Source of the DNA: Rhodopirellula sp. SM50 | Lineage (GTDB): Bacteria; Planctomycetota; Planctomycetia; Pirellulales; Pirellulaceae | Assembly (NCBI RefSeq): GCF_002289565.1 | Contig: NZ_NTFY01000084.1 | Span: 1-64,000 of the forward strand | Length of the DNA stretch: 64,000 nucleotides | Reading direction: 5' to 3' | In this document: piece by piece, positions 54,725 through 64,000 of the stretch | How the letters are laid out: every line of letters begins with the position of its first letter | Numbering within the stretch: the stretch's first letter is position 1 | Made by a program: the position numbers and the translations under genes | Notes under the pieces: model-generated | Seen by the model: only the letters and a program-made list of their open reading frames with translations | Databases searched by the model: none | What the model was told of the DNA's origin: nothing

Positions 54725-56005
54725 ATGACGAAGTTGAGAGGTGGACTGACGGTGGGCTTGGCGGTCATCGTTGCGGCGGTGGTCTGGCCGGCTGCGATCT
54801 TTGCGGCACCCGGTGCGAACGCGGGCGATTGGCCACAGTTCCGCGGTCCCGACGGGAATGGGACGGCAGTGGGCGAGGACTATCCGTTGACCTGGGGGCC
54901 AGGGGAGAACATCAAGTGGAAGATCGATCTGGCCGATCCCGGCGCCGGCAGTCCGATCGTTTCCGGCGGACGCGTGTTCCTCGCCAGCGGCAGCGAAGAT
55001 GGACGCCAACGCAACCTGCTGTGCATCGACCGCAACGACGGCACGCTACTGTGGACAAAGACGGTCGAGTTTGGGGAGGACACAACCCACCCACAGAATC
55101 CGTTTGGCAGTACCACTCCGGCCACCGATGGGACGCATGTCGTCGTCTGGCACGGTTCGGCAGGTCTGCACTGCTACGATTTTGCCGGACGATCGATTTG
55201 GTCGCGGGACCTGGGCGAATTCAAACACATCTGGGGCTATGGTTCGTCGCCGATCATCTACAAGGACAAACTCATTTTGCAGACGGGGCCGGGGGAACGC
55301 GTTTTCCTGACCGCGATTGACTTGGCCAGTGGAAAGACGCTGTGGGAAACCGACGAACCCTACAACGGTGACAAGAGCCCCGACGATGTCGGGTCATGGA
55401 GCACGCCGGTGGTCGCCCAAGTTGATGGCCAACCGCAAGTCATCTGTGCCATGAGCACCCGTGTGTGTGGCTACGATCTCGACAGCGGTGATCTGCTTTG
55501 GTGGTGCAACGGACTGAACGGTTCCAGTTACGACGTGGTCAGTTCTTCACCGCTCGTCGGTGACGGAATCGGTTTCGCCATGGCCGATTTGCGCGGGCCG
55601 GCGATGGCATTCAAGCTCGGCGGATCCGGCGACGTCACCGCATCGAATCGATTGTGGCACGTCGAGAAACGAAACCCCAGCAGCGTCGGCACCGGGGTCA
55701 TCGTTGGCGGTTATGTTTTCCGGCCGAACGCGAAACCCGGGACCATCGAATGTCTCAATGCCGAAACCGGCGAGAGTTTGTGGAAGAGTCGGGCCAAGGA
55801 TCACTGGGCATCGATGGTGCTGGCCGGCGGGCATGTCTACGCGCTCAGCCAGCGCGGCGCGACGATCGTTTTCAAACCCGATCCGCAAGCGTTCCAAGAG
55901 GTTGCCGAAAACGAACTGGACGGCGTGACCAATGCAACGCCTGCATTCTCGGAGGGGCAAATCTTTATCCGCACCGAAGAGCATCTGTATTGCATCGGCA
56001 ACTGA
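54725..56005 (+). CDS. Exported PQQ-type beta-propeller protein
   Basis: A 426-residue protein. The signal peptide covers about residues 1-34 (ending GANAGD). The body repeats propeller blades with the 'W..F.G...G......L...W' and 'A.DL.SGKTLWET' patterns of PQQ-like/BamB quinoprotein folds, beginning DWPQFRGPDGNGTA. No calcium/PQQ site of a methanol-dehydrogenase type is evident, so it is probably a structural or protein-binding relative. First gene of the eight-gene redox operon; 28 bases separate it from the next gene. Confidence 0.9.
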   Translation: MTKLRGGLTVGLAVIVAAVVWPAAIFAAPGANAGDWPQFRGPDGNGTAVGEDYPLTWGPGENIKWKIDLADPGAGSPIVSGGRVFLASGSEDGRQRNLLCIDRNDGTLLWTKTVEFGEDTTHPQNPFGSTTPATDGTHVVVWHGSAGLHCYDFAGRSIWSRDLGEFKHIWGYGSSPIIYKDKLILQTGPGERVFLTAIDLASGKTLWETDEPYNGDKSPDDVGSWSTPVVAQVDGQPQVICAMSTRVCGYDLDSGDLLWWCNGLNGSSYDVVSSSPLVGDGIGFAMADLRGPAMAFKLGGSGDVTASNRLWHVEKRNPSSVGTGVIVGGYVFRPNAKPGTIECLNAETGESLWKSRAKDHWASMVLAGGHVYALSQRGATIVFKPDPQAFQEVAENELDGVTNATPAFSEGQIFIRTEEHLYCIGN

Positions 56006-56033
56006 GTTCGTTGAGTTTGTCTAGGTAGTTCCT

Positions 56034-57431
56034 GTGAAAGTCCACGCCACCGAAGCGATCCTCCCCACGCTGACCGCGACGGTCGCAGTCGTGTCGCTGG
56101 CGTTCTGGTTGATGACCAGCCCGCCGAGTGATCTGGAGCCGCGGACGCCGGGGCGAGACGGCACGATCGACCGGTCCGGCCAGACGGCTCGCCCCGAGCC
56201 GGGCCAGCCGATCGCCGGTGCTGGAATCGCGTCGGACATTCCCGGCCAGTGGCCAGGATTCCTTGGACCGGGCCGCGATTCGATTTCAACCGGCGGCCCA
56301 CCGCTGGCACGATCCTGGCCCGCCGAAGGTCCCCCCGTGCTCTGGTCGATCGATGTCGCCGAGGGTTACGCCGGTGCCGCGATCAGCGACGGGCGAGTCT
56401 ACGTGTTGGATTACGACGAGGAAGCCGAAGCCGACACGCTGCGTTGCTTGTCTCTCGACGACGGCCGCGAAATCTGGCGCAACAGCTATCCCGTGGTCGT
56501 CGCGTTTTATCACGGCATGACACGAACGGTGCCGACCATCGTCGGTGACTACGTGATCACGATGGGGCCCCGTTGTCATCTGGCGTGTTGGGATGCGGCG
56601 ACGGGAGAATCGCATTGGTTGATCGATCTGGAACGCGATCATGGAACCAGAGTGCCGGAATGGTATACCGGCCAATGCCCATTGGTGGATCAAGACCGTT
56701 TGATCGTGGCCCCGTGCGGCGACGCGATGTTGATGGCGATTGACTACCGGACGGGCGACGTGATTTGGCAATCCCCGAATCCCAAGGGCTGGAACATGAC
56801 GCATGTTTCTGTCGTTCCGATGGAGTTCCAGGGGCGTCGGACGTATGTCTACTGCGCCAGCGGCGGCGTCGCCGGCGTTGCGGCCGACGACGGAACACTG
56901 CTTTGGGAAACGACCGCTTGGAAAGAAATCAATGCCACCAGTCCGTCACCGGTGGTGTTGCCCGATGATCGTCTTTTCCTGTCCCGAGGATATGGATCGG
57001 GAGCGTTGATGTTGCAACTGCTCAAGACCGACAGCGGGATCGAGGCCCGCAGCCTGTTCGAACTGACGCCCAAACAGTTCAGTTCCGAACAGCAGACACC
57101 GATCTATCGCGACGGTCATCTGTTCGGCATTCGAAAGATCGGCGCAAAAACGATGGTCTGCTTGGACCTCGATGGCAACGAGGTTTGGGACAGCGGCGGT
57201 GATCGGTTCGGACTCGGTCCCTACCTGTTCGCCGACGACCTGCTGCTGATCTTGGATGACGACGCAACGCTGACGGCCGCCGAGGCGACTCCGGCCGGCT
57301 ACAAACGACTGGCCCGGCACAAGGTGCTACCCGGCGGCCACGATGCCTGGGGCCCGATGGCGATGGTCGCGGGCCGTTTGATCCTCCGCGACATGACACG
57401 CCTGGTTTGCCTGGATCTGCGAGCGAATTGA
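56034..57431 (+). CDS. Membrane-anchored PQQ-type beta-propeller protein
   Basis: A 465-residue protein. The GTG start at 56034 leads to one membrane segment (about residues 10-28, 'TLTATVAVVSLAFWLMT'), then a short linker and a propeller of seven or so blades starting 'GQWPGFLGPGRDSIS'. Blade strands read 'VLDYDEEAEADTLRCLSLDDGREIWR' and 'ATGESHWLIDLERDHG'. A catalytic site is not visible. It is the second propeller of the operon; its stop overlaps the next start by one base (TGATG). Confidence 0.88.
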   Translation: MKVHATEAILPTLTATVAVVSLAFWLMTSPPSDLEPRTPGRDGTIDRSGQTARPEPGQPIAGAGIASDIPGQWPGFLGPGRDSISTGGPPLARSWPAEGPPVLWSIDVAEGYAGAAISDGRVYVLDYDEEAEADTLRCLSLDDGREIWRNSYPVVVAFYHGMTRTVPTIVGDYVITMGPRCHLACWDAATGESHWLIDLERDHGTRVPEWYTGQCPLVDQDRLIVAPCGDAMLMAIDYRTGDVIWQSPNPKGWNMTHVSVVPMEFQGRRTYVYCASGGVAGVAADDGTLLWETTAWKEINATSPSPVVLPDDRLFLSRGYGSGALMLQLLKTDSGIEARSLFELTPKQFSSEQQTPIYRDGHLFGIRKIGAKTMVCLDLDGNEVWDSGGDRFGLGPYLFADDLLLILDDDATLTAAEATPAGYKRLARHKVLPGGHDAWGPMAMVAGRLILRDMTRLVCLDLRAN

Positions 57432-58618
57432 TGGCCGATAAAAACACGATCCCCGATGAAGTTGGAGTTCAACGACACATGCGATTCCTGAATCAGCATC
57501 GAGGAACGCTGGTCACCGCCGTGATCGCCGTGGCGGTCGGCATCGCCAGTTATGCCGTCGTCAGCAGCGACCCGTTGGCCCAGCGCAGTGGTCGATCCTT
57601 CACGATCGATTTTTCCAGTGTCTACGACATCGATCCGGGATTGATTCAGTTCGAGCAGACGGGGGAAATCAAAGTCCCGTTGGATGACGTTCGCTGCATC
57701 GACGTCGGCCCCGCGGACAAGATCTACGTGGCCGGTGACCGGTCGGTCGGCGTGTATGCGCAAGACGGCACCGAGCTGGCGGTGATCCGAACCGAAGGCC
57801 AACCCGGCTGCGTGGCGGTCGGTGGTGACGAGCATGTCTTTCCGGGACGAATCTACGTCGGTGGCGACGGCAGGATCGAAGTGTTCCAACCGAACGGCAG
57901 TCGCGTCGGGATTTGGGACGTGCCGGAGCAGAACGTAATCCTGGCATCGATCGCGGTCGCGGGCAACGATGTGTTCGTCGCCGACGCGGGCAACCGCGTG
58001 GTGTTGCGATACGACCCGTCCGGCCAACGCGTGGGAACGATCGGCGATCCGGATGACGGCGGACGAACCTTCAACGTCCCCAGTGCGCACTTCGATATCG
58101 CGATCGGATCCGAAGGACGGCTGCACGTTGCCAACCCGGGCGCCCTGCGACTGGAGACGTACACGTTCGACGGTGCGATGGAAGTCCGTTGGGGCGAGCC
58201 CGGGGCGACGATCGACCGTTTCTTTGGTTGCTGCAATCCGAGCGAGTTTGCGGTCTTGCCCGGCGGCGCAATCGTGACTTCGGAAAAGGGCATCCCACGG
58301 ATCAAGGTTTACAGCGAGTTTGGAGAATTTGAGTGTGTGGTCGCGGGGCCGAGCATGTTGGGAGTCGCCCAGTCGGAGATTGGAGACCCCCGCGCCGTCC
58401 AAGCCGAAGCGATCTTTGACGTGGCGACCGACAGCCGGGGACGCATCTTGGTTTTGGATCCGAGACGAAAGTCGGTGCGGATTTTTGAACGCAGTATTGT
58501 CGAAAAAAGTGGGATAGGCTTCCAGCCTGTCAATCCTGAAATGTGGGATAGGCTTCCAGCCTGTCGACTCGCACATGACAGGCTGGAAGCCTATCCCACT
58601 GTTTGGGATCGAGGGTAA
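57431..58618 (+). CDS. NHL-like beta-propeller protein with palindrome-derived C-terminus
   Basis: A 395-residue protein starting at ATG 57431. One membrane segment (about residues 23-42) is followed by an NHL/six-bladed propeller ('DKIYVAGDRSVGVYAQDG', 'NDVFVADAGNRVVLRYDPSG', 'GRLHVANPGALRLETYTFDG'). The last ~38 residues, beginning GIGFQPVNPEM, are encoded by a family B palindrome that has extended the frame; the natural end was probably near FERSIVEK. It is third in the operon; the next gene starts five bases after the stop. Confidence 0.88.
   Translation: MADKNTIPDEVGVQRHMRFLNQHRGTLVTAVIAVAVGIASYAVVSSDPLAQRSGRSFTIDFSSVYDIDPGLIQFEQTGEIKVPLDDVRCIDVGPADKIYVAGDRSVGVYAQDGTELAVIRTEGQPGCVAVGGDEHVFPGRIYVGGDGRIEVFQPNGSRVGIWDVPEQNVILASIAVAGNDVFVADAGNRVVLRYDPSGQRVGTIGDPDDGGRTFNVPSAHFDIAIGSEGRLHVANPGALRLETYTFDGAMEVRWGEPGATIDRFFGCCNPSEFAVLPGGAIVTSEKGIPRIKVYSEFGEFECVVAGPSMLGVAQSEIGDPRAVQAEAIFDVATDSRGRILVLDPRRKSVRIFERSIVEKSGIGFQPVNPEMWDRLPACRLAHDRLEAYPTVWDRG
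58507..58600. repeat. Family B palindrome, compound copy inside a coding end
   Basis: Two direct copies of GTGGGATAGGCTTCCAGCCT and one complementary arm GGCTGGAAGCCTATCCCAC. All are translated as part of the preceding gene. Confidence 0.9.
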
Positions 58619-58623
58619 ATCGA

Positions 58624-58851
58624 ATGACGCACACTGAAACCAACCAACGCCGGCAATGGCTGATTCGCACCGGACGCTACGCGATCCTCGGTGGCCTGTC
58701 CGTCTTGTCATTGAACTTGATCGACCGCGCGCTGCGCGGTGGGTGCGTGCGGCTGGAATCACCCTGCCAGAGCTGTGAGCTGTTCAAAGCGTGTGAGCTT
58801 TCCAAAGCGGCCGAGGCGAGGCAAGCAACGACCGAGGGGAACCCATCATGA
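58624..58851 (+). CDS. Small membrane protein with CxxC motif
   Basis: A 75-residue protein with GAGGG upstream of ATG 58624. One membrane segment (about residues 22-40) is followed by a tail with five cysteines, including CQSC (CVRLESPCQSCELFKAC). No known family is recognised. Its stop overlaps the next gene (ATGA). The cysteine pattern and position before two ferredoxin genes point to a role in cluster binding or thiol chemistry for the operon. Confidence 0.82.
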   Translation: MTHTETNQRRQWLIRTGRYAILGGLSVLSLNLIDRALRGGCVRLESPCQSCELFKACELSKAAEARQATTEGNPS

Positions 58852-59498
58852 ATCGCGAAAAACAAACCGACCGACGCGGTTTTCTCGCCGACGGCGCACG
58901 CGTCGCCGGCGTCGTGTCCGCGGGGGTGTTGGGTGGGTTTTTGGCCGGCCGTCGAGGTCAGGCCGAAGAAAACCGCTGGCAGATCGATCCCGACAAATGC
59001 GTCGGATGCGGCAACTGCGCCACCCACTGTGTGCTCGACGAATCGGCCGTCAAATGTGTCCAGTGTTTTGACATGTGCGGGTTCTGCAACCGTTGCACCG
59101 GCTACTACACGCTGGACGGACTGGACAGTCGCGATACCGCCGCAGAGGACTTGCTGTGCCCGACCGAAGCGATCATTCGCACGTTCGTCGAAGGCAAAGC
59201 GGGGCAAAACTTCTATGAGTACACGATCGACACCGACGCCTGCATCGGTTGCGCGATGTGCGTCAAGGGCTGTGCCCTGATGAACGGTTCGCTGTACCTG
59301 CAAGTCATGCAGGATCGCTGTGTGAACTGCAACGAGTGTGCGATCGCGGTCGCCTGTCCCAGCGACGCGTTCGTCAACGTTTCGGCCGACAAACCCTATC
59401 GATTGAAACGAGTGGCGTTGGGGGTGATGCGGCAAAAGGCGGGGAAAGCCGACAAGGCCGCGCAGAGGCTGATCGATCAGGTGCAGGCCGATGAATAG
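58848..59498 (+). CDS. Tat-exported polyferredoxin (4Fe-4S)
   Basis: A 216-residue protein. A twin-arginine signal (TDRRGFLADGARVAG) covers the first ~38 residues. The mature part has a ferredoxin motif CVGCGNCATHC, then CVQCFDMCGFC (irregular Cys-rich), then CIGCAMCVKGC and CVNCNECAIAVAC, enough for three or four [4Fe-4S] clusters. It is related to NapG/HybA-like periplasmic electron carriers. It would pass electrons between the membrane ferredoxin encoded next and a periplasmic partner. The start overlaps the preceding gene by four bases, the end overlaps the next gene by eight. Confidence 0.92.
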   Translation: MNREKQTDRRGFLADGARVAGVVSAGVLGGFLAGRRGQAEENRWQIDPDKCVGCGNCATHCVLDESAVKCVQCFDMCGFCNRCTGYYTLDGLDSRDTAAEDLLCPTEAIIRTFVEGKAGQNFYEYTIDTDACIGCAMCVKGCALMNGSLYLQVMQDRCVNCNECAIAVACPSDAFVNVSADKPYRLKRVALGVMRQKAGKADKAAQRLIDQVQADE

Positions 59499-60876
59499 GA
59501 TCTTTCGCCTCCGTGTTGCCGCGTTGCTGGTCGTTGCCCTGGTGGGCGGCGTCTTGATGGGCGGCGTGATGGCGGACGAGTCGTCGGACCTGATGTTCCC
59601 GGTTCCGGAATTCTCCGACCATCCGATCCCCACCGCCAGTGTCCCGGAGGTAGAGCGCGAGGTCGCGGCGGTCTTGGACGTGGCGATTCTGTTTGTCGCG
59701 TTGTGTTTGGCGTCTTACTTCACGTTGGTGTCGCGGTCGCGTCGTAACGTGCTGTTGTTGACGATCGCAAGCTTGCTGTGGTTCGGTTTTTGGCGGCAGG
59801 GCTGCGTCTGTCCGGTGGGGGCGACCCAGAACGTCGCGTTGGCGATTTTTGATCCGACGTATGTGGTTCCGCTCGCGGTGGTGGCGTTCTTTGTTCTGCC
59901 GTTGGTGTTCACGTTGTTCTTTGGACGAACGTTTTGCGCGTCGGTCTGTCCGCTCGGCGCGATGCAAGAGCTGCTCGCGGTTCGCTCGATCAGAGTGCCC
60001 CGCTGGCTGGACCATTCGTTGGGCTTGGTCGCTTACATCTACCTGGGTGCCGCGGTCATCTTCGCCGCGACCAAAACCGGATTCATCATCTGTCGCTACG
60101 ATCCGTTCATTCCTTTTTTCCGACTGGGGGCGAACACCGACATGTTGCTCTTCGGCAGCAGCATCCTGCTGATCAGCGTGTTTGTCGGTCGCCCGTATTG
60201 TCGTTACCTGTGTCCTTACGGCGCGATTCTGCGTGTGCTGTCGTGCTTTTCCAAATGGCGTTTGAGCATTCCGCCGGACACCTGCATCAATTGCCAGCTC
60301 TGTGAAGACGTCTGTCCCTACGGAGCGATTCATCCGCCGACGGTCGCGCAGTCGCCGGAACGTCGGCGAAAAGGGAAACGTCGCTTGATAACCGCCCTGA
60401 TGGCGGCTCCGGTCGTGGTGCTCGGTTTCTGGTGGCTCGGTACGGCACTCGCCGTTCCACTGTCGCAGTGGCATCCGGAGTCGCGTTTGGCCGAACAGGT
60501 GCGGTTGGAAGAGTTGGGTGTGGCGGAATCCACCACCGAAGCCAGCGACGCCTTTCGTGGATCGGGACGATCGGTGGAGCAGTTGTATCAATCGGCGCTG
60601 TCGCGGCGCAATGACTTTGTCACGTTGGGCGGATTGCTCGGTGCCTGGACCGGGTTGGTGATCGGTTTCAAGTTGATTCATCTGTCGGTGCGACGCCGCC
60701 GTGACGATTACCAGGCAGACCGTGCGGGATGCGTTTCCTGCGGCCGTTGTTACTGGTATTGCCCGGTCGAAAAGGTCAGGCTTGGATTGATTTCCGATGT
60801 TTCCGAAGCCCTGCCCGACGGCCAGATGCCGACGGGGCCGCTGGTCCAATTGACCGTCGGAGGCAAAAAGTCGTGA
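59491..60876 (+). CDS. NapH/NosR-like membrane 4Fe-4S protein
   Basis: A 461-residue membrane protein with about six helices and an N-terminal signal-like helix. The family motifs are present: QGCVCPVG, FCASVCPLGAMQE, CRYDPFIPFFRLG, CRYLCPYGAILR, then a cytoplasmic ferredoxin CINCQLCEDVCPYGAI, and a further CVSCGRCYWYCPVEKVR near the C-terminus. NapH and NosR pass electrons from quinol or flavin through the membrane. Two [4Fe-4S] sites are expected. It overlaps the polyferredoxin gene by eight and the next gene by four bases. Confidence 0.93.
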   Translation: MNRIFRLRVAALLVVALVGGVLMGGVMADESSDLMFPVPEFSDHPIPTASVPEVEREVAAVLDVAILFVALCLASYFTLVSRSRRNVLLLTIASLLWFGFWRQGCVCPVGATQNVALAIFDPTYVVPLAVVAFFVLPLVFTLFFGRTFCASVCPLGAMQELLAVRSIRVPRWLDHSLGLVAYIYLGAAVIFAATKTGFIICRYDPFIPFFRLGANTDMLLFGSSILLISVFVGRPYCRYLCPYGAILRVLSCFSKWRLSIPPDTCINCQLCEDVCPYGAIHPPTVAQSPERRRKGKRRLITALMAAPVVVLGFWWLGTALAVPLSQWHPESRLAEQVRLEELGVAESTTEASDAFRGSGRSVEQLYQSALSRRNDFVTLGGLLGAWTGLVIGFKLIHLSVRRRRDDYQADRAGCVSCGRCYWYCPVEKVRLGLISDVSEALPDGQMPTGPLVQLTVGGKKS

Positions 60877-62663
60877 ACGCTTATTTGGGCTATCGATCGA
60901 TCCTGCTCTCCGCGTGGGTGGCCGGAGTGTTTTCGACGCTCGTCGGAGCGATCTTGGTGATCGATGGCATGAATCGATTGGACAAGATTCCCCTGGAAGC
61001 GACTTCATTCGTCCAGCTCAGGGAACAGTTCCTCCAGCAGCCCGACAACGATCAGCTGCGGCAAGAGATCCAGGCGTTGGATCTGGCGCTGCGTCAAGAA
61101 TACTTCCGCGAGTTGCGTTTCACCGAGCGTGGTTCGTATCTGTTGTTGGGCGGCATCCTCGTCACGCTGGTTTTCAGCAAGTGGGCAGCCACGCTGCACC
61201 GCAAGCTGCCGCGCCCCAAGCCGAAATTGCCCGGACCCGATAGCGACGAAGTCTTGAGCCATAGGGGACCATGGGCGGTCTCCGTCGTGATGTTGGTGCT
61301 GGTCGGCACGGCCTGGGCGATGAATACCGGTCACCGCAGTGTGTTGCCGTCAACCTCGGATGCATTGGCGTCGGTCCACGATCCGGTCGGCGAGCAGAAG
61401 AGGGACGGTCAAGACGCGGTGGTCGAATCGGTGCTTGCCGAACTTCCAAGTGCCGCAGAGTTGCGGGCGAACTGGCCCAGCTTTCGTGGGGCCGATGGTT
61501 CGGGAATCGCTTTCGATCAAGATGCGCCCACGGTCTGGGACGGTGAATCCGGCGAAGGGGTGGTTTGGAAGACGGCGGTGCCGCTGCCCGGTGTCAATTC
61601 GCCGATCGTCTGGCGGGACCGCGTGTTTCTCTCCGGCGCGACTGCAGACGAACGTGGTGTTTACTGTTTCGATGCCGGCTCCGGAAGCATGCTTTGGAGC
61701 ACCGACATCGCCGTCGATCCCGCGGTCGCGGGAGAGAAGATCAAGACTTCCAATGACACCGGCTACGCCGCGCCGACGATGGCGACCGATGGACGGTTCG
61801 TGTTTGCGATGTTTGCCGACGGGCAGTTGGTCTCACTCGATTTCGCCGGCAACGAAGTGTGGACGCGTTCGTTGGGCGTGCCGCAGCGAAACAACTATGG
61901 CCACGCGTCTTCCTTGGTGACGTACCAGGGTTCGGTGATCGTGCAATTCGACCAGGGAACCAGCGAGGACCAGCTCTCCAAATTAATGTGTTTCGACGGT
62001 GCAACCGGCAGTCCGATCTGGGAAACGATCCGCGCGACACCGGCGTCCTGGTCGTCACCGATCGTGATCGAGCACGACGGCCAAGCTCAAGTCATTACCT
62101 GTTGCGATCCCTGGGTGATGGCGCACGCGCCGAGCGATGGAAGAGAACTGTGGCGGGCAAACTGCTTGGAACGTGTCGAAGTTGGCCCCTCGCCGGTGTA
62201 CTCCGACGGGATCGTCTACGCCGGCAACGACACCGCGATCTATGCCGCGATTCGTGTCGACGGATCGGGCGACGTGACGGAAACCCATGTGCAGTGGACC
62301 GCCGATTACGGGCTGCCAGATACCTGCAGCCCCCTGGTCACCGAAAAGTTTTTGTTGACGCTGGCTTCCTATGGCACGCTGTTCTGTTTCGACAAGCAGG
62401 AAGGCGGTGAACCGTTGTGGGAAGAAGATTTCGGAGCGGATTTCCTATCGTCCCCGAGCCTCGTGGGCGAGCGCGTTTATTTGTTCAGCCGCGACGGCAC
62501 GGCGTGGGTGGTCGAGCCGACCGGCGAAGCGTGCAATCGCATCTCGGAAGCTCAATTGGGAGAAGAATGCGTGACCTGTCCGGCGTTTCAGGATGGTCGG
62601 ATTTTTATCCGAGGAAGCGAGCACTTGTTCTGCATCGGGAGCGCAACCGCTGATGATCGATGA
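60873..62663 (+). CDS. Polytopic membrane protein fused to a PQQ-type beta-propeller
   Basis: A 596-residue protein. The GTG at 60873 has GGAGG nine bases upstream and overlaps the preceding stop; the longer open frame to 60729 lies inside the NapH-like gene. Three membrane segments (about residues 9-30, 90-110 and 131-150) precede an exported propeller of about 430 residues starting 'NWPSFRGADGSG', with blades such as 'GVYCFDAGSGSMLWSTDIAVD' and 'LFCFDKQEGGEPLWEEDF'. Third PQQ-type propeller of the operon and the only one with several helices. The next gene starts 24 bases later. Confidence 0.9.
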   Translation: MNAYLGYRSILLSAWVAGVFSTLVGAILVIDGMNRLDKIPLEATSFVQLREQFLQQPDNDQLRQEIQALDLALRQEYFRELRFTERGSYLLLGGILVTLVFSKWAATLHRKLPRPKPKLPGPDSDEVLSHRGPWAVSVVMLVLVGTAWAMNTGHRSVLPSTSDALASVHDPVGEQKRDGQDAVVESVLAELPSAAELRANWPSFRGADGSGIAFDQDAPTVWDGESGEGVVWKTAVPLPGVNSPIVWRDRVFLSGATADERGVYCFDAGSGSMLWSTDIAVDPAVAGEKIKTSNDTGYAAPTMATDGRFVFAMFADGQLVSLDFAGNEVWTRSLGVPQRNNYGHASSLVTYQGSVIVQFDQGTSEDQLSKLMCFDGATGSPIWETIRATPASWSSPIVIEHDGQAQVITCCDPWVMAHAPSDGRELWRANCLERVEVGPSPVYSDGIVYAGNDTAIYAAIRVDGSGDVTETHVQWTADYGLPDTCSPLVTEKFLLTLASYGTLFCFDKQEGGEPLWEEDFGADFLSSPSLVGERVYLFSRDGTAWVVEPTGEACNRISEAQLGEECVTCPAFQDGRIFIRGSEHLFCIGSATADDR

Positions 62664-62687
62664 CTCGAGTTTCGGACGAGCTGCCGA

Positions 62688-64000
62688 ATGATCACGACAA
62701 ACCCACGAATCGACTTGACCGCCGTCGATCGGATGATCGAACAGATCGGTCGCGGCCCCGATGCGGTCATCCCGATCTTGCACGCGGTGCAGAGGGAGTA
62801 TCGTTATTTGCCGCAGGAGGCGCTGCGGCGGATTTGCGAACAAACCGAGATCACGCCGGCCGCGATCACCGGCGTCGCGTCGTTCTACGATCACTTTCGA
62901 CATCATCCCGTCGGCAAGCACATGATCAGCGTCTGCACGGGAACGGCCTGTCACGTCAAGGGAGCGGATCTGGTCGATGATGCGATTCGACACGAACTTC
63001 AGCTCGCCCCGCACGAGGACACCGATACCGAGGGTGAGTTCACGGTCCAGAAAGTGGCTTGTCTGGGATGTTGCACCTTGGGTCCGGTCGTGCAAATTGA
63101 CGATGCGATTTTTGGCCATGTCAGTTCCCAGACGACGCCGCGGATGCTGCAGGAATACGACGAAGCGGAATTCGTCAAATTGTCTGCCGTGCATCGTCCG
63201 ATTTCACAGCCGCGGGGGCCAAAAACGACGGAGGTGCGGATCGGGCTGGGCTCGTGTTGCCTGGCACTGGGCAGCGACAAGGTGCACGAAGCGCTGTGCG
63301 ATGCCATCGATGACTCTGGCGGCGACGCCTACGTCAAACAAATTGGTTGCACGGGAATCTGCAGCAAGGTCCCGCTGGTCGAGTTGGTTTCGCCCGACGG
63401 CGCGTCCCAGAGCTACACCAACGTCAATCCCGAGATGGCTCGAAAGATTGTCCAGAAACACTTTCGTCCAAAGGGTATTTCCAAACCGATCCGCTACGCC
63501 GCGTCGCGGATTCTCGATTGGATCCAATCCGATGAAGACCAGGATGTGTTGCAAAAACACCGCGCCGCCCGCGACGGTGTCGTCGCTTCCTTCATCGGTC
63601 CGCAAAAGCACTTGACGTTGGACTTGCTCGATGCGATCGATCCACTCGATTTGGACGAGTACAGGCGTCACGGCGGATTTGACTCGCTGAAAAAATGTCT
63701 CACCGAGCTCCAGCCGGAACAAATCCTGGACGAGATCGAAGCCAGCGGGCTGCGAGGTCGTGGCGGTGCCGGATTTCCGACGCACATCAAGTGGCGAACC
63801 GTCCGTCGCCAACAAAGCCCGACCAAATACATCATCTGCAACGGTGACGAGGGCGACCCCGGCGCGTTCATGGACAAGGTGCTGTTGGAATCGATTCCGT
63901 TTCGCGTGATCGAAGGCATGGCCATCGCCGCGCGCACGGTCGACGCCCATGATGGCATCTTCTACGTCCGCGCCGAATACCCGCTGGCCGTGGAACGGAT
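62688..64000 (+). CDS. NuoE-NuoF fused NADH dehydrogenase-type subunit (partial)
   Basis: At least 437 codons, open to the window end. Residues 1-170 are a NuoE-like thioredoxin-fold domain with [2Fe-2S] cysteines C83, C88, C125 and C129 (CTGTAC ... CLGCC, an extra Cys128). Residues about 183-260 are a second thioredoxin-like domain with GSCCLALGS and GCTGICSKVPLVEL. Residues about 350 onward begin the NuoF flavoprotein domain: LRGRGGAGFP (FMN/NADH loop) and CNGDEGDPGAFMDKVLLE. The NuoF [4Fe-4S] site lies beyond the edge. The same arrangement occurs in NAD-linked hydrogenase and formate dehydrogenase diaphorase subunits, so the next gene may be a catalytic subunit; that is inference. Confidence 0.92.
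   Translation, partial: MITTNPRIDLTAVDRMIEQIGRGPDAVIPILHAVQREYRYLPQEALRRICEQTEITPAAITGVASFYDHFRHHPVGKHMISVCTGTACHVKGADLVDDAIRHELQLAPHEDTDTEGEFTVQKVACLGCCTLGPVVQIDDAIFGHVSSQTTPRMLQEYDEAEFVKLSAVHRPISQPRGPKTTEVRIGLGSCCLALGSDKVHEALCDAIDDSGGDAYVKQIGCTGICSKVPLVELVSPDGASQSYTNVNPEMARKIVQKHFRPKGISKPIRYAASRILDWIQSDEDQDVLQKHRAARDGVVASFIGPQKHLTLDLLDAIDPLDLDEYRRHGGFDSLKKCLTELQPEQILDEIEASGLRGRGGAGFPTHIKWRTVRRQQSPTKYIICNGDEGDPGAFMDKVLLESIPFRVIEGMAIAARTVDAHDGIFYVRAEYPLAVER

Follow-up and report, generated by a model that had tools for sequence, protein, structure and literature searches.

A conserved gene cluster of Rhodopirellula sp. SM50 that brings together a Bfu-family pair, a NapH/NosR-like membrane protein and predicted Tat-exported ferredoxins: a candidate membrane-linked bifurcating complex

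The window analysed here is the whole 64,000-nt stretch at positions 1-64,000 of contig NZ_NTFY01000084.1 (Rhodopirellula sp. SM50; contig end at 67978). From 54725 on, it carries eight tightly packed open reading frames (ORFs) on the same strand, P1-P8, followed outside the window by a ninth gene, P9. The proposal is that P8 and P9 constitute a module of the electron-bifurcating Bfu family, wired via the membrane iron-sulfur protein P6 to the periplasmic proteins P4 and P5, and oxidising NADH and reduced ferredoxin together; this reading is given an even chance. The gene order, motifs, domain loss and co-occurrence on which it is built are read from sequence. The genes are as follows (aa, amino acids).

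P1, 54725..56005, + strand: secreted PQQ_2-type propeller, 426 aa, one predicted N-terminal hydrophobic segment; accessory.
P2, 56034..57431, + strand: PQQ_2-type propeller with N-terminal membrane anchor, 465 aa, invariant Cys 138, 215 and 459; core gene.
P3, 57431..58618, + strand: NHL-type propeller with N-terminal membrane segment, 395 aa, FGCCNP Cys-Cys and EKG..R.K motif; core gene.
P4, 58624..58851, + strand: twin-arginine protein, predicted mini iron-sulfur protein, 75 aa, C-x6-C-x2-C-x5-C.
P5, 58848..59498, + strand: twin-arginine polyferredoxin, 216 aa, RR and 16 Cys invariant.
P6, 59491..60876, + strand: NapH/NosR-like membrane iron-sulfur protein, 461 aa, two CX3CP and two ferredoxin motifs, C105/C107/C201.
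P7, 60873..62663, + strand: three predicted membrane helices and a PQQ_2-type propeller, 596 aa, GTG start; core gene.
P8, 62688..65078 (window part to 64000), + strand: BfuC-BfuB fusion, 796 aa, [2Fe-2S] thioredoxin-like, FMN/NAD and 2x[4Fe-4S] domains.
P9, contig 65175-66887, + strand: BfuA/StnC-like protein (2Fe-2S and GltD-like), 570 aa, without NADP(H) and FdhF domains.

The intergenic gaps within P1-P8 are 28, 5 and 24 nt, and the overlaps 1, 4, 8 and 4 nt. ORF calls and sequence thus agree with the first-pass annotation, which had described eight co-directional genes with gaps of at most 28 nt and overlaps of 1-8 nt. Its eight-gene unit survives as a packed, operon-like set, but not in its limits, as the stop codon of P8 lies at contig 65078, the cluster continues with P9, and P1 falls outside the conserved set P2-P9. 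The true start of P9 may lie about 33 codons further in. The hydrogenase, formate dehydrogenase or molybdenum enzyme suggested to follow is absent between P9 and the contig end (about 1.1 kb), where two small overlapping ORFs lie on opposite strands (ORFs of at least 140 aa). A hydrogenase or formate dehydrogenase next door was also rejected as a candidate partner, none being recognised among the flanks shared between loci (four groups annotated).

P8 had been described as a diaphorase-type fusion of NuoE and NuoF. The fusion is borne out by Pfam and NCBIfam, but the diaphorase type gives way to a bifurcating BfuB/HydB signature. A BfuC-type 2Fe-2S thioredoxin-like domain (PF01257, 164 bits, residues 14-157) is fused to a BfuB part, in which PF01512, PF10589 and Fer4 exceed their cut-offs and SLBB stays below (22.5 versus 27 bits); we take these Pfam models to correspond to the InterPro entries that define the Bfu family. 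When all PDB sequences are searched, the best matches are 9bov_B, 8oh5_B and 9n5u_B. Residues C629, C667, H716, C721 and C726 align with the B2 cluster ligands C438, C476, H525, C531 and C536 of 7t2r_B, and are kept in 87/87, 79/86, 86/86, 86/86 and 86/86 orthologs, respectively. The ortholog sets used here and below hold one sequence per locus above a score threshold, with identical ones removed, and are therefore biased to good matches, most strongly for P4 (threshold 24 bits). According to parts of PMC9304861, where the Bfu family is defined, the B2 His ligand is missing in just 8 of 1558 BfuB sequences and is absent from non-bifurcating homologs. An ordinary NuoEF diaphorase was rejected for P8 on account of these ligands. 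The orthologs also conserve the cysteines of the 2x[4Fe-4S] domain at the C-terminus, where ferredoxin is proposed to react, and the N-terminal BfuB region aligns like StnB, described with a single [2Fe-2S] cluster (the B5 [2Fe-2S] criterion). As P8 combines this signature with a nearest relationship to Stn/Nfn-ABC, ferredoxin is a likely third player, and P8-P9 is proposed, from its motifs, to be a bifurcation-type pair acting as a cytoplasmic module.

P9 resembles an StnC-like subunit stripped of domains. Its best PDB sequence matches are 9bov_A, 9n5u_A and 8oh5_C, and its model is nearest by fold to Stn/Nfn-ABC structures. Residues 34-319 align with residues 3-287 of 9bov_A and residues 308-547 with 424-671, leaving the intervening residues without a counterpart in P9. 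The same gap, of 131-139 residues, appears against 9bov_A, 8oh5_C, 9n5u_A, 5jca_L and 5vj7_A; in the fold of GltD/NfnL/StnC, the missing stretch holds the second nucleotide-binding domain, and 5jca_L has a second Rossmann-type motif, GKRVAVIGGG, near residue 293. This NADP(H)-binding domain is absent in all 75 scorable P9 orthologs (80 collected), in which the motifs flanking the gap are 17-74 residues apart (median 39), versus about 186 in 9bov_A. The FdhF-like C-terminal domain is absent too, the alignment ending at residue 671 of 1172 (8oh5_C) and of 1178 (9bov_A). The window's P9 retains the FAD Rossmann part, the sole confident part of a model that is poor overall (mean predicted local distance difference test score, pLDDT, 63.9). 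At the position usually occupied by Asp in the second FAD motif, the orthologs have N in 30/75, D in 21/75 and another residue in 24/75.

Some lineages have gone further. In L152, L157 and L167 (two Phycisphaerae/Phycisphaerales and one Lentisphaerota), P9 has 341-349 residues, and the FAD domain (about profile positions 183-363) is gone; what remains is the 2Fe-2S/4Fe-4S part at the N-terminus and the iron-sulfur part at the C-terminus. Profile positions 234-346 are unmatched in the P9 of L110. In L111 (genome G446, L111:12216-15170), a 984-aa P8 ends in two P9-like stretches (51.5 and 29.3 bits), the two iron-sulfur ends without the FAD domain, constituting a natural minimal P8-P9 fusion. 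Within the C-terminal ferredoxin-like region of P9, the fourth Cys of the first motif is replaced by A in 52 sequences, T in 21 and S or L in 2, and kept in 1 (n = 76); judging by these residues, one of the two predicted clusters of this region is lost. According to part of PMC10482914, the GltD-like domain of Stn delivers electrons from NADPH. With the NADP(H) site lost, P9 looks like an iron-sulfur adaptor that would need another partner, and the operon offers P6. A transhydrogenase of the Stn type was also considered for P8-P9 and rejected on account of the lost NADP(H) domain.

P6 had been called NapH/NosR-like, which Pfam and NCBIfam support at the level of likeness, the scores staying far below the curated cut-offs of both NapH (TIGR02163, 42 versus 213.05 bits) and NosR (NF046105, 47.2 versus 1000 bits). 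Two motifs, C149-x3-C153P and C237-x3-C241P, lie in a multi-helix membrane module, and 15 cysteines are conserved in at least 99% of 114 sequences (the family alignment leaves out three of the 21 orthologs, L009 and L018 with an internal stop in the match and the fragment L024). Beyond the CX3CP and ferredoxin motifs, the orthologs hold invariant C105, C107 and C201, with D204 following C201. Ten paralog sequences of NapH/NosR-like type, taken from nine loci in the window's family, keep the CX3CP cysteines (10/10) and have none of C105/C107/C201 (0/10). From the model (mean pLDDT 78.1) and the charges of the loops, the CX3CP motifs are predicted to face the cytoplasm and C105/C107/C201 the periplasm. 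A Foldseek search with the model gave no match at E <= 0.001. The model has two helices between its two ferredoxin motifs, where NapH presumably has none.

The module with two CX3CP motifs is shared by P6 with NapGH, NosR and RdhC/PceC; NapH and NosR also carry ferredoxin motifs, according to part of PMC5928378, and NapH has a ferredoxin partner. Unlike these systems, P6 scores below the curated cut-offs, has the extra C105/C107/C201, and has no adjacent terminal reductase; also unlike NosR/RdhC, with their extracytoplasmic covalent FMN domain, no FMN-binding domain was found by Pfam in any of P1-P9. In parts of PMC8238504, NapH-like proteins are described as modular transmembrane carriers, and NuoF-like proteins are placed with MsrQ-like systems rather than NapH-like ones. 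The NapH core of P6 also bears on an alternative, held to be clearly unlikely, in which P8-P9 would work as a non-bifurcating NADH dehydrogenase passing electrons from NADH alone to P6, and P6 would exchange them with quinone, as proposed for NapGH; NapH is indeed thought to act on quinol (parts of PMC5928378 and PMC9012536). It is opposed by P8, which retains two features reported to be lacking in non-bifurcating homologs, namely the B2 His and the B3/B4 cysteines.

On the periplasmic side, the RR and the 16 Cys of P5 are invariant in 109 sequences, and its motifs predict room for four [4Fe-4S] clusters, in keeping with the twin-arginine (Tat) polyferredoxin first described. For P4, which has no Pfam or NCBIfam match, the RR and C-x2-C-x5-C occur in 90/90 sequences, with a preceding fourth Cys (3-9 residues between) in 86/90. 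The three propellers first described as PQQ-type (secreted, single-pass and three-helix) match PQQ_2/BamB-type Pfam families in P1, P2 and P7, with 1, 1 and 3 predicted segments; they score far below the PQQ-dehydrogenase models TIGR03075 and TIGR03074 (best 40.3 versus 480.05 bits, TIGR03075). The NHL assignment of P3 holds by a small margin (21.4 bits versus a cut-off of 20). Across 95 orthologs, the vicinal Cys-Cys in FGCCNP is invariant and EKG..R.K conserved, possibly marking a redox or binding site. Sequence searches of the PDB gave no match at E <= 0.001 with P2, and just TRIM- and Thin-type NHL domains with P3.

The P6-centred cluster is conserved well beyond the genus. Orthologs of P6 are present in 21/100 genomes of the family (E < 1e-60, own genome counted) and in 37/392 genomes of the phylum (E <= 1e-40). 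Among the 20 P6-bearing family loci examined besides the window's own, P7 is followed by P8 and P9 in 13; the contig of L043 runs out after P8, L052 combines P8 and P9 with a fragmented P6 but lacks P7, the contig stops inside P7 in L011, L041 and L049, and the P7 match of L037 covers just 27% of the length of P7. High-scoring P1 orthologs are restricted to near relatives, other loci having propeller matches of 29-31% on the other strand, and the outer flanks of the cluster mostly differ between family loci. The conserved set is P2-P9, with P1 outside it. In the phylum, neighbourhoods were examined in 20 of the 37 P6-bearing genomes; P8 is present in 20/20 and P9 as a separate gene in 17/20, two of the other three contigs ending earlier and the third being L111 with its fusion.

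A scan of named genomes, with a capped list of the best 80 of 570 confirmed stretches to which the following counts refer, recovered this gene order both from isolates (Stieleria, Labilibaculum) and from metagenome-assembled genomes (MAGs) of several phyla. These are mostly Planctomycetota, along with Verrucomicrobia, Lentisphaerota, Labilibaculum (Bacteroidota), Spirochaetales, Aminicenantes, Acidobacteria, KSB1, Omnitrophota, Armatimonadetes and Poribacteria; most of the scanned genomes are MAGs, whose names can be wrong. Among the matches listed, the window's P6 is closest to those of Planctomycetes bacterium TBK1r (98% identity over the best segment) and Stieleria sedimenti (95%), which points to a Stieleria-like planctomycete as the origin of the window. 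Where the locus has room, P2 is found in 53/60, P3 in 59/61, P5 in 67/67, P7 in 70/71, P8 in 57/64 and P9 in 50/57 loci. Order or compactness is broken in L134 (P8-P9 upstream), L171 (P2-P3 after P7), L179 (P2-P3 on the other strand), L101 (P4 before P3), L174 (insertion after P5) and L188 (insertion after P6). Pairwise distances of seven core proteins over 61 loci correlate at 0.63-0.87, with species descent uncorrected. Gene order is thus conserved across families and phyla, and the lack of it in relatives, named by the first-pass annotation as part of what would refute its reading, does not apply.

Several loci have additional genes. Labilibaculum sp. K2S (L189; Bacteroidota, no MAG label) carries the entire P2-P9 set plus extra propellers, which makes it convenient for tests. 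Between P8 and P9, L045 (G073, L045:3222-4994) has two additional ORFs of 432 and 157 aa, and L034 has one. In G007, a second, divergent pair of P8-/P9-like ORFs occurs near the cluster on the opposite strand (L041:10129-13044).

P6 and P9 also go together as genes of the same genome. In the family, full-length P9 (E < 1e-230) is found in 20/21 P6-positive and 0/79 P6-negative genomes (p 4e-20), and the lone P6-positive genome without it, G052, has a contig ending inside P8. The two genes are about 92 kb apart in G087 and on different contigs in G060, so that the link is independent of adjacency. In the phylum, all 22 near-full-length P9 matches (E <= 1e-147) fall in P6-positive genomes, and the P9 matches of P6-negative genomes are mostly partial or lie within longer frames.

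In the mechanism proposed, NAD(H) would react at the FMN of P8 and ferredoxin at its C-terminal 2x[4Fe-4S] domain, and P9, its NADP(H) site lost, would serve mainly as an iron-sulfur adaptor joining the module to P6. Within P6, electrons would pass from the cytoplasmic ferredoxin domain to an inner-face CX3CP site and on to an outer-face site (C105, C107, C201 and perhaps D204), then to Tat-exported P4 and P5, and finally to an acceptor near P2, P3 and P7, which may be anchored periplasmic propellers holding P5 or presenting the acceptor. The most likely direction would be confurcation of NADH and reduced ferredoxin, with mid-potential electrons leaving to the periplasm. Complex formation, cluster occupancy, topology, direction and acceptor are what we infer from the parts. 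These fit the earlier suggestion that electrons move between NAD(H) in the cytoplasm and a periplasmic partner, here an iron-sulfur one reached through the NapH/NosR-like protein; the earlier idea of the propellers as scaffold or receptor is conjecture. No cytochrome or flavinylated protein was recognised in the cluster. In parts of PMC9304861, the third substrates best known for Bfu enzymes are put near -400 mV, a potential lower than that of NADH (-280) and higher than that of ferredoxin (-500), and one that a string of [4Fe-4S] clusters could match. A bolder version of the proposal, put forward tentatively and with less confidence, is a new type of Bfu complex with its third partner across the membrane, in which an iron-sulfur-only wire (the ends of P9, and P6) would lead from NADH and reduced ferredoxin to the Tat-exported ferredoxins; this would be an undescribed fermentative electron outlet across many phyla, with the propellers docking a periplasmic or surface acceptor.

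The direction was judged from the metabolic company of the cluster, by comparing the 21 cluster-bearing with the 79 other family genomes, uncorrected for descent or tree. PFOR exceeds its cut-off in 16/21 versus 10/79 genomes (12/16 versus 10/52 by genus, p 8e-5), and in the phylum in 24/37 P6-positive versus 110/355 other genomes (p 8e-5). FeFe-hydrogenase is found in 7/21 versus 0/79 (by genus 4/16 versus 0/52, p 0.002), NifH in 8/21 versus 1/79 (by genus 5/16 versus 1/52, p 0.002), and RnfD over its cut-off in 8/21 versus 6/79 (p 0.0014; by genus 4/16 versus 5/52, p 0.2). The window's own genome has PFOR, no FeFe-hydrogenase match and no RnfD over the cut-off. The outward direction is preferred because PFOR, a ferredoxin producer, is the commonest companion among those tested. 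The same complex might run in reverse, which is considered unlikely: a low-potential periplasmic donor would feed P5, P6 and P8-P9, and bifurcation would pass the electrons to NAD+ and to ferredoxin, the latter serving nitrogenase or biosynthesis. Part of PMC9304861 describes Bfu enzymes as reversible, and the co-occurrence with NifH would suit this direction; the place of PFOR as commonest companion speaks against it, as does the fact that no periplasmic low-potential oxidoreductase was seen in the cluster or its shared flanks.

The relationship of P6 to NosR and NapH raises another alternative, namely electron supply to a known periplasmic reductase of nitrous oxide or nitrite encoded elsewhere in the genome. 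This is regarded as very improbable, given that neither NosZ (TIGR04246, 1/21 versus 1/79) nor Cytochrom_C552 (NrfA, 9/21 versus 27/79) is associated with the cluster, other reductases not having been searched, and that P6 has no recognised FMN-binding domain; a supply line for NosZ or NrfA was rejected. A simple replacement of Rnf was rejected as well, as the cluster and RnfD tend to go together (by genome, not by genus).

Several observations weigh against a confurcating complex wired to the periplasm. Two family loci, L038 (G060) and L044 (G087), have P2-P7 without P8 and P9 alongside, and P8 is absent from 7/64 scan loci with room. Of the 37 P6-positive phylum genomes, 22 have a near-full-length P9, 7 a partial one and 8 none at E <= 1e-60. 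In G140, a P6-negative MAG of 83% completeness, a P9-like piece matches at positions 169-535 (E 1e-124), which argues either against strict P6-P9 linkage or for a missing P6. The metabolic co-occurrences, uncorrected for descent, may only mark anaerobes. The outer site of P6 and its placement depend on a pLDDT-78 model and on the charges of the loops, some of which are ambiguous, and clusters at the CX3CP motifs are doubtful even in NosR, for which part of PMC5928378 gives at most 8 iron atoms per molecule.

Among known systems, the closest solved relatives of P8 and P9 are the Stn/Nfn-Bfu enzymes (StnABC of Sporomusa ovata, 8OH5; Nfn-ABC of Caldicellulosiruptor, 9BOV; NfnABC of Thermococcus sibiricus, 9N5U). 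They share the BfuB core of P8 and the StnC-like layout of P9 (N-terminal 2Fe-2S plus GltD), but differ in that BfuC and BfuB are fused in P8, that P9 lacks the NADP(H) and FdhF domains, and that the operon encodes membrane and periplasmic parts. In the predicted Mbh-Bfu and Nuo-Bfu systems described in part of PMC9304861, BfuABC is also encoded with membrane subunits, and Nuo-Bfu is reported in Planctomycetes; here, in contrast, the membrane part is NapH-like, with Tat ferredoxins and propellers and with no Mbh or complex I. The words NapH, NosR, periplasm and propeller do not occur in the main text of that paper, the part covered here. Rnf likewise links NAD(H) and ferredoxin metabolism at the membrane, but no Rnf subunit is found among P1-P9 by curated score, and 13/21 cluster-bearing family genomes have no RnfD over the cut-off.

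The earlier statement that no characterised complex has this set still stands, none of this composition being found in a literature search that covered part of the matching papers. Both halves are of known kinds; as far as that search shows, what is new is their union, the loss of the NADP(H) and sometimes the FAD domain, and the extra site in P6. The known cases of electron bifurcation are soluble enzymes and a few predicted proton pumps, and there is a real chance that the cluster encodes a new class of membrane-linked bifurcating complex. If so, fermenting bacteria could move the electrons of NADH and ferredoxin out of the cytoplasm via periplasmic ferredoxins. This would constitute a possible route of ferredoxin reoxidation in PFOR-bearing planctomycetes in which no FeFe-hydrogenase and no RnfD over the cut-off was found, the window's genome included (NiFe-hydrogenases were not searched). 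An StnC-like subunit that has lost first its NADP(H) and then its FAD domain would also offer a natural experiment on third-substrate exchange in Bfu enzymes. The presence of the cluster in cultured bacteria (Stieleria, Rhodopirellula, Labilibaculum) makes the proposal experimentally testable.

The flanks of the cluster in other lineages bear on a last alternative, in which P2-P7 would be a separate periplasmic assembly, transport or sensing device, with P8-P9 as an occasional source of reducing power. Among the 80 scan loci, an ABC ATPase is found in 20, a permease (FtsX/MacB-type, roughly 1100 aa) in 20, a group-1 glycosyltransferase in 15 and further propellers in 15, a possible hint of export to, or assembly at, the cell surface. 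The two ABC genes occur together in just 11/43 loci having more than 8 kb upstream (downstream copies counted), and one representative each of the ATPase, permease and glycosyltransferase had no ORF match at E <= 1e-5 in the 21 loci of the window's family; this alternative is judged quite improbable. In Phycisphaerae and other lineages, the MacB/FtsX-type ABC pair and the glycosyltransferase lie before or after the cluster, for example at L161:1836-5138, L148:1055-1744 and L135:1-1152.

As for other sequence signals, a promoter scan by consensus gave 1 site versus 3.0 expected, so that separate promoters within the cluster may still exist, terminator-like sites numbered 20 versus 13.7 expected (standard deviation 4.3, both strands counted), and a plasmid search gave no match. 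A 21-base palindromic-type repeat, GGGATAGGCTTCCAGCCTGTC, is present in seven copies in the window (at most 2 mismatches), with none expected, at window positions 1901, 1933, 28609, 33989, 58511, 58545 and 58577. Three of the copies lie within the 3' end of P3 and are translated, so that P3 of this genome ends in repeat-derived residues.

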